From the NCBI GenBank assembly GCA_031082125.1, contig JAVHLM010000003.1, forward strand, positions 1-64,000: a stretch of 64,000 nt of DNA. The letters are read 5' to 3'. The DNA is from Candidatus Eremiobacterota bacterium. Its GTDB lineage: Bacteria; Vulcanimicrobiota; CADAWZ01; Ess09-12. The notes beneath the pieces are model-generated. The model did no database searches. It saw only the letters and a list, made by a program, of their open reading frames with translations, and was not told the origin of the DNA. This document shows, in pieces, positions 30,874 to 34,042 of the stretch. The position numbers and the translations under genes are program-made. Position 1 is the first letter of the stretch. Each line of letters starts with the position of its first letter.

Positions 30874-30981
30874 GACCTTTACGAGGTATAAAAATAATGG
30901 TTCCACTGGAGGGATCTCTCTGCTTTTCAAGAACGTTTTACATGGCCACCGAAATAAAATGCCGCCCCAGGAGGAGTTATC

Positions 30982-33027
30982 ATGGAAAGCCTTCCTTTTA
31001 TAATTGATAAAAGACGATTCTACATGGCCTTCAAAGGCAGGACTGACAGGGTGGGCATCTATAATGCTGCCACATGCAAGATAGTATCGATGGAAGTAAA
31101 GAAAGGCGACTGGGAGATAGCCCAGAGGATAGAGGCCCATCTGGGCGGCCAGGCACGGCTGGGCATCCACAACCATCTCCAGGACAACACCTGCCCCTGG
31201 GCGCTGGTAATCTTTGATGAGGCAAGCGGGAACCCTACAGGGAGGGACTCGCTTTTTTTTGCAAGCGAGGGAGCCAAGCTGGGTCTCCGCGACATCAAGA
31301 GGGAGCGGACCAAGGTGAAGGGTGAGAACTACGAGTGCTGGCTCTTTTTCGAGAAGCCTCTCCCCGTGAGAAAGGTGAGGCACCTCCTCACGCTCATGCT
31401 CAAGAAATTCGGGATCTCCAAGGTGGAGGTGCTCCCCAACGAAGACGATCTCACCACGGGCAGCTTCGGGAACTATGCATGGCTTCCCTATTTCGGGGGC
31501 ACCGACAAGTGGATGACCGAATCCGGTGAGAGCCGCGTTGACTACGGCATGAAGATGGGATTCACCATCTTCATCGACGAAGAGGGAAAGCCTCTCAAGG
31601 ATCCCTTCGCCACCATCCACCGCTACACGGAAGAGGAGGTGGACAACGCCATCCTCTACCTCTCCGAATACATTCCCCCGGAGCCCTCGCCTGAAGAGGG
31701 GATAAGGATCCTGGACTCACACCTCAGAAAGCTGTCGGAAAAATGTGACGGCTTCAAAGCCATGACCCTTGAGGTCCGCGACAAGAGAATCCTCCGTGAA
31801 GAAGGCCTCACCCTGCTGGGCCTCATGCTCGGGACCCTCAACAGGCCTGACTACCTTCACAAGCTCCTCGCAAAAACCGCCGATTACGACAAGGACTATT
31901 ACGACAAGAAGATCCAGGCCCTCACGGGAAGGGCATTCCGCACCTGCGCCGAGTTCAAGGCGACGGGGTACTGCCCCAAGGAGAAGGTCTGCTTTGACAG
32001 GAGGCCGCCCCTCTCTGAGCGTTTCGGGAAATTCGATGAGGACAAGAACAAGCCACCCGAGCTCTGGAGAGAGCCGTCGCCCGTGCAGTGGATATTCCAG
32101 GGAATCAAGGAGAGAATGGGAGAGGAGGGCGAAGCCGAGACTGCGGTCATTGACATCGATGTAAAGAGCCAGGAAGAGTTTCTGGTGGACTTTGACAAGG
32201 AGATAGTGGAACTGCGCGGGAGGGTCATCAAGAGCAAGAGGAACTTCTCAGGGTATGATACAGGCTTCCCCTCGCTCAACCAGGTGCTTGACGGCCTCAA
32301 GGCCGACACGCTCATCACCCTTGCGGGGCCCCAGGGAACAGGGAAAACGGCTTTTGCTCTGCAGCTCACCGAGCAGGTCGCCCAGCTCGAAGGCGTGCCC
32401 TGCGCCTTCATCGCATACAGCGAGACCAAGCAGGCAATGACGGTGAAAATGCTCTCCCGCATCTCGGGAATGGATTACAGGAAAATCTCGCGGGCTCTTC
32501 TCAATGATGAAGAGCTCATCAGGGTGAAACAGGCAGCGGAGAAGATAAAGGCGAGCTACGGGAAACATGTTTTCATCATAGAGGGGAACGACTCTCTCGG
32601 CATAAAAAAGATCAAGACCCTCATGGACTTTGCCTCGCCAAAGTTCATCGTCATTGACTCCATCGGCCAGCTGCCTTTTATTTCGAAACAGAACATCTCG
32701 GACATCTCGCTGCGCATCGAGCAGAACATGTCTCAGCTCAAAACCCTTGCCCGTTATCAGAAAATACCCCTTCTGGCTGTTTTTTCCTCAAGAGACAAGG
32801 AGCTTTCCATTGAAGGGGCCCTCATGCTTGAGTCCCTCATCATGCAGGCCAGCGACGTGTTCCTCCAGATGGAGGAAAAGGGACCTCTCACAGGCCCCGC
32901 TGAGAGCTCCTCACCAGGCTCGAAGGAGCTTACTCTCACGGTCCGCAAGAACAAGGGAGGAGAAAAAAATATCGTGATGCGCTTCGGGTATCAGCTCCTG
33001 GTCCAGAAGCTCTTTGAGCTGAAATAG
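30982..33027 (+). CDS. primase-like (AEP/TOTE type) and DnaB-like helicase fusion protein
   Basis: 681 residues; AGGAGGAG five bases before the ATG supports the start. The N-terminal 250 residues look like an archaeo-eukaryotic primase (TOTE type): CWLFFEKPLPVRKVRHLL and EVLPNEDDLTTGSFGNYAWLP mimic the conserved FFEEPxPA and Q/NDxLxxGxxGNxxxLP blocks. However the DxD motif appears as DEA and the expected catalytic His is not found, so polymerase activity is doubtful. A Cys cluster (C-x8-C-x5-C near 322-337) follows. The C-terminal RecA-like domain has Walker A GPQGTGKTAF near 450 and Walker B KFIVIDSIGQLP near 553 and resembles the DnaB C-terminal domain. It stands alone; role unknown, possibly replication or repair. 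Confidence 0.65.
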   Translation: MESLPFIIDKRRFYMAFKGRTDRVGIYNAATCKIVSMEVKKGDWEIAQRIEAHLGGQARLGIHNHLQDNTCPWALVIFDEASGNPTGRDSLFFASEGAKLGLRDIKRERTKVKGENYECWLFFEKPLPVRKVRHLLTLMLKKFGISKVEVLPNEDDLTTGSFGNYAWLPYFGGTDKWMTESGESRVDYGMKMGFTIFIDEEGKPLKDPFATIHRYTEEEVDNAILYLSEYIPPEPSPEEGIRILDSHLRKLSEKCDGFKAMTLEVRDKRILREEGLTLLGLMLGTLNRPDYLHKLLAKTADYDKDYYDKKIQALTGRAFRTCAEFKATGYCPKEKVCFDRRPPLSERFGKFDEDKNKPPELWREPSPVQWIFQGIKERMGEEGEAETAVIDIDVKSQEEFLVDFDKEIVELRGRVIKSKRNFSGYDTGFPSLNQVLDGLKADTLITLAGPQGTGKTAFALQLTEQVAQLEGVPCAFIAYSETKQAMTVKMLSRISGMDYRKISRALLNDEELIRVKQAAEKIKASYGKHVFIIEGNDSLGIKKIKTLMDFASPKFIVIDSIGQLPFISKQNISDISLRIEQNMSQLKTLARYQKIPLLAVFSSRDKELSIEGALMLESLIMQASDVFLQMEEKGPLTGPAESSSPGSKELTLTVRKNKGGEKNIVMRFGYQLLVQKLFELK

Positions 33028-33106: not shown

Positions 33107-34042
33107 GTGGAAGAGGTTTACAGGATACTTGTCGCCGATGATGAGGAAGACAACCTCAATCTCCTGAAATGCTACCTTGAAACCATGGACTTCGAGGTCA
33201 TCACCGCCGTCAATGGAATTGAGGCAGTGGAGAAAGCCCAGAGCGAGACCCCCGACCTCATAATCCTCGATGTCATGATGCCGGGAATAGACGGATTTGA
33301 GGCATGCAAGAAAATCCGCGGTGATTTCTCCGTGAGCCATATTCCCATACTTTTCCTCACCTGCAAGGTCTCAATCGAGGACACGGTCCATGGCCTCAAC
33401 GTGGGCGGCGATGATTACATCTCCAAGCCTTTCGATTTCAGGGAACTCGTCACCAGGATCCACACCATTCTCAGGCGCACCAAGCAGCATATGGCCGCAA
33501 ACCCCCTCACCGGCCTTCCGGGGAACACCTCCATCCAGAAAGAGATAAAAAGGCTTATCAGCGAGAAGATCACCTTTGCCGTCTGCCTTCTGGACATCGA
33601 CAATTTCAAATCCTTCAACGATCTTTACGGTTACGAGAGAGGCGACAAGGTCATCAAGAACACGGCCACCATCATCATGGAAGCCTGCAAGGACACGAGC
33701 ATTCCTTACAAGTTTATCGGGCACATCGGCGGCGATGATTTTATCTTTATCTGCGCTCCTGAGCACGCCGCCGGGCTCTCCGAAAAGATAATCTCCCAGT
33801 TTGACGCCGTGGCGCCTGAATTCTATGATGACAAGGACAGGGAGAGGGGCTTCATTGAGACGATCTCGCGGAGGGGTGACGTACAGCGCTATCCCCTTGT
33901 GAGCATCTCTATAGGCATCGTGACCAATGAACTGAGGATCCTTGAGCATCCCGGCCAGGTAGCCCAGATCCTGGCGGAACTGAAATCATTTGCCAAGAAA
34001 ACGCCGGGAAGCAATTATGTGAAGGATCGGCGGGCCGACTGA
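33107..34042 (+). CDS. response regulator with a GGDEF-family domain (GGDDF)
   Basis: 311 residues from a GTG at 33107 preceded by GGGGG. The receiver domain has DDEED at 11-15, phospho-acceptor Asp55 in IILDVMMPG and KPF with the conserved Lys. The GGDEF-family domain (about 135-300) opens with NPLTGLPGN and carries GHIGGDDFIFI in the active-site turn: GGDDF rather than GGDEF. No RxxD inhibitory site is visible five residues upstream. A conservative Glu-to-Asp change may keep some cyclase activity or leave a binding domain. The gene follows the helicase fusion by 79 bases. Confidence 0.85.
   Translation: MEEVYRILVADDEEDNLNLLKCYLETMDFEVITAVNGIEAVEKAQSETPDLIILDVMMPGIDGFEACKKIRGDFSVSHIPILFLTCKVSIEDTVHGLNVGGDDYISKPFDFRELVTRIHTILRRTKQHMAANPLTGLPGNTSIQKEIKRLISEKITFAVCLLDIDNFKSFNDLYGYERGDKVIKNTATIIMEACKDTSIPYKFIGHIGGDDFIFICAPEHAAGLSEKIISQFDAVAPEFYDDKDRERGFIETISRRGDVQRYPLVSISIGIVTNELRILEHPGQVAQILAELKSFAKKTPGSNYVKDRRAD

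Follow-up and report, generated by a model that had tools for sequence, protein, structure and literature searches.

Fusions of an AEP primase, a PriCT domain and a RecA/DnaB ATPase have been described in mobile elements (PMC5862659), and the PriCT domain and the Fe-S domain of PriL are held to be related (PMC5862659). The CAPP protein of Marinitoga (7nqd/7nqf/7p9j) has a C-terminal PriCT-like domain of its own with conserved cysteines, and its AxA mutant, in which both aspartates of motif I are changed, is inactive (PMC8211822); mutation of motif I or motif III ablates Prim-Pols in general (PMC10345425). Several tailed phages (Pseudanabaena phage Pan1 gp45, Dinoroseobacter R5C/R26L, DSL-LC04 and PMBT28) encode AEP primases with a four-cysteine domain, and the primase proteins of TOTE conflict systems pair an intact AEP with an SF2 helicase. 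Metazoan Twinkle is a primase-helicase fusion that has lost its primase activity and kept the domain (PMC7231222).

The window analysed here, a stretch of 64,000 nucleotides from a Candidatus Eremiobacterota bacterium (contig JAVHLM010000003.1), encodes a fusion protein with the following features, all on the plus strand.

30982..33027, plus strand: whole gene, an AEP-like / four-cysteine helical / DnaB-type RecA fusion of 681 aa; stop codon at 33025-33027
30969..30974, plus strand: ribosome-binding site AGGAGG, 7 nt before the ATG, read from the sequence
30982..31686, plus strand: AEP (Prim-Pol) domain, residues 1-235, almost certainly catalytically dead, the most conserved part of the protein (Pfam PF22548; profile match to Marinitoga CAPP 7nqd/7nqf; AlphaFold2; Foldseek; conservation)
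31201..31218, plus strand: motif I, residues 74-79, ALVIFD; the first Asp of DxD is replaced by Ile77, the second is Asp79 (alignment)
31321..31341, plus strand: motif II, residues 114-120, GENYECW; the catalytic His is replaced by Glu118, and by Ala, Lys or Arg in homologues (alignment)
31426..31437, plus strand: motif III, residues 149-152, EVLP; the acid is present as E149, is E or D in the order, and is gone in the more distant genomes G012 and G007 (alignment)
31687..32016, plus strand: helical domain, residues 236-345, probably PriCT/PriL-like, with invariant C255, C322, C331 and C337; candidate Fe-S or Zn site (alignment of homologues and phage primases; RepB'/pRN1 fold matches)
32017..32211, plus strand: linker, residues 346-410, whose end merges into a long helix (predicted, 397-418) ahead of the RecA fold (structure model)
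32212..32856, plus strand: DnaB-type RecA ATPase, residues 411-625, with Walker A GPQGTGKT (449-456), Glu481 and Walker B Asp559 (PF03796; DnaB profiles; Foldseek match to DnaB)
32857..33024, plus strand: C-terminal strands of the RecA fold with an RKNKGG motif; K656, N657 and G660 are invariant in full-length relatives (alignment, model)

The open reading frame is real, and the two parts that the first-pass annotation had proposed, an AEP/TOTE-like N-terminal half and a DnaB-type RecA domain, both have Pfam matches above the cut-offs (AEP-TOTE, PF22548, residues 47-212, 4e-15; DnaB_C, PF03796, residues 424-600, 1.2e-18). The NCBIfam model of Marinitoga CAPP (NF040561) matches residues 116-324 (3e-12) with 45.8 bits against a cut-off of 200, and the DnaB equivalog model (TIGR00665, cut-off 385 bits) gives 69 bits; therefore the protein is kin to both families without being a typical member of either. 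Of 149 Eremiobacterota genomes, 7 carry the gene, namely all five of the order to which the window belongs, G012 (full length, 32-34% identity) and G007 (truncated). Chance is excluded because the same fusion recurs at full length in five of five order genomes and in one remoter genome. The GTDB contig collection, scanned with a narrow pattern that could miss distant copies, gave the gene in the Eremiobacterota group only.

A profile built from seven homologues matches the solved Prim-Pol domain of Marinitoga CAPP (7nqd, 1.8e-12). The full-length AlphaFold2 model (pLDDT 66.8) was poor over the AEP domain, a fault mended by modelling residues 1-365 with a wider alignment (13 sequences; pLDDT ~80-94 across most of the AEP domain). 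Foldseek matched this second model to CAPP Prim-Pol (7nqd/7nqe/7p9j, E ~2e-12, TMt 0.68-0.76, with 0.76 for 7nqd) and further to RepB' and S-2L PrimPol, so that structure prediction, the check proposed with the first-pass annotation, recovers an AEP fold; together with PF22548 and the 7nqd profile, these matches place the domain in the AEP / Prim-Pol superfamily.

When the catalytic motifs were aligned with those of solved CAPP, TOTE and phage AEPs, the first acid of the active motif I pattern (hhhDhD/E) was found to be gone (I77-F78-D79), as was the histidine of the motif II pattern (sxH), while the motif III pattern (hD/E) is satisfied by E149. Across the five order genomes, the two motif I positions read I/I/I/I/S and D/D/D/N/E, the motif II histidine position reads E/A/A/A/A, and motif III reads E/E/E/E/D. 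All three motifs are present in 78 of 78 full-length phage relatives, and the CAPP-like and TOTE AEPs of Eremiobacterota likewise retain their catalytic motifs in the alignment. The primase site of the 681-aa protein is almost certainly dead, because the first aspartate of motif I and the histidine of motif II are missing in comparison with active relatives and because homologues lose further residues. The DxD pair had been read as absent along with the histidine; the histidine and the first aspartate are indeed lost, but D79 is retained, so that the pair is only half lost. The accompanying suggestion of a non-synthesising primase domain, perhaps for DNA recognition, is well backed by the profiles, the structure models and the homologue alignment. 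Residual binding of a metal or nucleotide by the AEP head is possible, since D79 and E149 survive in this species. These two acidic positions could also be taken to mean that the protein still synthesises, D79, E149 and another residue supporting primer synthesis or nucleotidyl transfer that is slow or of an unusual kind, and the AEP PolpTN2 does work with glutamine in place of the motif II histidine (PMC5862659); but the first motif I aspartate is Ile or Ser throughout the order, homologues lose more motif II and III residues with no fixed replacement, and changing both motif I aspartates abolishes CAPP activity (PMC8211822), all of which makes retained synthesis very improbable. In another Eremiobacterota genome, a TOTE-like AEP-SF2 helicase protein (L069, G015:C3:5198-5698) has apparently lost its AEP catalytic residues, possibly a case of independent AEP inactivation.

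The cysteine cluster noticed earlier between the two halves (Cys322, Cys331 and Cys337) has a fourth member, C255, that had been overlooked. All four are invariant in the six full-length members, with a spacing of 66-8-5, and match the cysteines of phage AEP primases column for column in the alignment; the spacing in the phage proteins is usually 69-8-4, with C-x8-C-x4-C in 78 of 78 and an upstream PPC in 75 of 78. Foldseek matches to RepB' and to the pRN1 primase cover the AEP and helical domains together, and most of the model of residues 1-365 can be aligned with a viral one that bears the name 'primase large subunit'. Searched alone, the four-cysteine domain gave only chance matches to Pfam and PDB profiles, and an hhalign comparison with the C-terminal domain of Eremiobacterota CAPP-like proteins, in which the profiles were shallow, was negative. 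A PriCT/PriL-like identity of the domain, suggested by alignment and by modelled structure, is supported but not proven, since the direct profile tests of the domain alone were negative.

The phage loci retrieved from IMG/VR (L104-L183) represent a very common family of AEP primases of ~510 aa, composed of AEP and four-cysteine domains, that has at least 596 relatives and matches the Pan1 and R5C primases. Among the best 80 loci, none has a RecA domain in the same open reading frame as the AEP primase. Two BFVD models from uncultured phages (604 and 686 aa, one of them named DnaB-like) match residues 1-365. Viral contigs searched with the profiles of the family and with CAPP-like AEPs yielded no AEP relatives. 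Two DnaB-matching phage or plasmid 'primases' (H1 and H42) were rejected as relatives, being TOPRIM-DnaB fusions and not AEPs.

The RecA domain is DnaB-like by profile matches and by Foldseek, and in the window species it combines the DnaB_C profile match with each of the residues expected of a DnaB / SF4 protein: Walker A GK[ST] (within an intact GPQGTGKT), the catalytic Glu (E481) and the Walker B Asp (D559). It also resembles KaiC, but the DnaB profiles score higher. The four relatives that make up the sister family have GKG/GKH/GKN/GKG at Walker A, with Ser/Thr replaced by G, H or N; the catalytic Glu has become Asp in two of them and the Walker B Asp has become Asn in one. The G007 copy is without the Walker A Lys and the four-cysteine domain and keeps the AEP fold. 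Judged by these motifs, the ATPase looks intact in the window species and eroded in its rumen-type relatives; given the altered Walker and catalytic residues of the sister family, motor activity is not expected to be family-wide.

Within the same genome, the closest relative of the RecA domain is a 410-aa protein (G000:C6:206385-207617; L080 7386-8618) with a DnaB_C-like RecA domain (Pfam 1.1e-17); its N-terminal 130 aa appear PriCT-like by eye and have no Pfam match. A second divergent DnaB paralogue (G000:C6:212611-214143; L080 13612-15144; DnaB_N 2.8e-4, DnaB_C 1.6e-17) lies 5 kb from the gene for the 410-aa protein, so that the genome has at least four DnaB-type RecA proteins, the fusion and the true DnaB included.

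Members of the order include the MAGs RUG13580, RUG13696 and Horse_feces333, names that suggest gut habitats. In the phylogenetic tree, the family is a single clade (support 100/97) whose branching within the order agrees with the genome families; the tree gives the family no firm placement among the phage, CAPP-like and TOTE AEPs. The GC content of the gene is 0.549, compared with 0.547 for the window, and varies widely among hosts, as it does for resident genes. All five order genomes encode an ordinary DnaG and an ordinary DnaB, and consequently the fusion protein need not prime.

The loss of the AEP catalytic residues, the eroding ATPase motifs of the sister family, the worse state of both in G007 and the absence of the gene from most of the phylum might together describe a relic of an integrated element, a primase-helicase drifting toward loss. 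However, all seven gene copies have an intact reading frame free of internal stops, and the two closest genomes give dN/dS values of 0.15 for the AEP domain, 0.07 for the four-cysteine domain and 0.08 for the RecA domain; these two observations rule out a pseudogene. The AEP domain of the window protein is 57-61% identical to its counterparts in the other four genomes of the order, and the RecA domain 43-49%; DnaG and DnaB, compared with three of those genomes, reach 43-44% and 53-56%. The dead AEP domain is thus better conserved than the essential primase, which points to selection for something other than catalysis. Decay is the reading least to be expected, and is already largely refuted.

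Upstream of the fusion gene on the other strand are a tuf-nusG-rplK-rplA operon and tRNA-Thr/Gly genes, and response-regulator genes lie downstream, with one for a response regulator-GGDEF protein (window 33107-34042) starting 79 bp away. This confirms the solitary position of the fusion gene between a translation operon and signalling genes. The response regulator-GGDEF protein reads GGDDF; the motif of active diguanylate cyclases is GGDEF or GGEEF. Elsewhere, the neighbours named by eye are a glycosyltransferase and a cupin in G002 and G003 (one genus), phosphomannomutase in G012, and dnaG-rpoD nearby in G004, and in G007 a TPR-Ser/Thr kinase gene precedes the homologue (L081 9699-11390) by ~80 bp. 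When the flanks of the homologues were compared, no neighbour was common to different genera, and inspection by eye of the flanks read turned up no phage, transposon, defence or cas genes.

The signalling genes beside the window and G007 copies, the likeness of the RecA domain to KaiC, and the retention of the pocket fold with its motif III acid in the order would suit a signalling switch, in which the AEP-like domain senses a nucleotide or second messenger and a ligand in the old NTP cleft controls the RecA ATPase. This is unlikely, for these signalling genes do not recur beside the gene in other genomes, the site lacks its motif II histidine and one of its metal ligands, every full-length member keeps the four cysteines of a probably PriCT/PriL-like domain, and DnaB outscores KaiC.

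The first-pass annotation also raised a place in an undescribed defence system. AEPs of PF22548 are found in TOTE conflict systems and CRISPR-associated Prim-Pols, and PADLOC gives weak PrimPol and ATPase matches, so that the dead primase head could be imagined to recognise replication intermediates of invading phage. Defence genes are normally patchy in distribution, but none of the five order genomes lacks this gene, which in that respect resembles a core gene, and it has neither partner genes common to genera nor recognisable defence or cas genes in the flanks read. The defence proposal is unsupported because of this want of conserved neighbours between genera, the absence of flanking phage genes and the normal DnaG and DnaB of its hosts, and such a role is improbable.

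The best explanation, with a probability of about one half, is that the gene encodes a domesticated chromosomal primase-helicase of Twinkle-like logic, in which the dead head serves as the DNA-gripping part on a DnaB-type ATPase. An AEP primase head with a probably PriCT/PriL-like four-cysteine domain is joined to a DnaB-type RecA motor; the head has lost its site for nucleotidyl transfer, while strong selection has kept its fold and surfaces. The dead AEP and four-cysteine module would grip single-stranded DNA or a primer-template end, and the RecA domain would form a DnaB-like ring that in the window species may use ATP to move along or remodel the gripped DNA, with any primer made by a synthesising partner, DnaG or a polymerase. 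In the rumen-type relatives, with their altered Walker A and catalytic residues, the protein may act mainly as an ATP-gated DNA-binding scaffold. A bolder and tentative extension makes it an order-wide core factor of chromosome maintenance, the non-synthesising AEP counterpart of Twinkle, in which the dead primase and the four-cysteine domain (perhaps a redox-active Fe-S domain) form a clamp that loads the DnaB-like ring independently of DnaG. Dead enzymes under selection expose functions that catalysis hides; if primase heads can serve cells by gripping DNA alone, the fusion protein would parallel Twinkle independently, starting from the unrelated AEP fold. A replication protein of mobile-element type would then have become fixed in the chromosomes of a whole order that still has DnaG and DnaB.

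For a cellular protein, the earlier description as an unusual replication protein is fair, but mobile elements were already known to carry AEP-PriCT-RecA/DnaB fusions, and phage fold matches exist. What is new is that catalysis has been lost yet the protein is strongly retained, with vertical chromosomal inheritance throughout an order, phage AEP-DnaB fusions having been compared by fold and name only. PrimQH of PrimPol-PV1 (AEP-PriCT-ATPase, some members having a DnaB/RepA RecA helicase) presents the same order of AEP, PriCT/Zn-binding domain and RecA-type helicase (PMC5862659), but it is encoded by mobile elements, is predicted to be active and has a C-terminal winged helix, whereas the fusion is chromosomal, with a dead AEP of the CAPP/TOTE type and no mobile genes recognised in its flanks; it was set apart from PrimQH by description. 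The named tailed-phage primases share the AEP and four-cysteine domains at near-identical cysteine spacing, and most of them share an LPYF motif with the fusion protein, but they are phage-encoded, with all three motifs intact; a direct phage origin finds no support: the tree does not place the family with Pan1-type primases, and the best 80 loci are without RecA. Marinitoga CAPP belongs to the same AEP subfamily by profile and fold, but it is catalytically active and CRISPR-linked, with a TPR domain and without a DnaB domain; CAPP membership was rejected on the dead motifs, on flanks in which reading by eye showed no cas genes, and on the low NF040561 score. TOTE primase proteins, which occur in other Eremiobacterota, share the AEP family PF22548, but membership was rejected because the helicase partner here is RecA and not SF2, system partners are missing and the tree clades are separate. 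Metazoan Twinkle is alike in logic only: its head is TOPRIM and not AEP, its zinc-domain cysteines have been lost whereas the four cysteines here are invariant, and its ATPase is fully intact.
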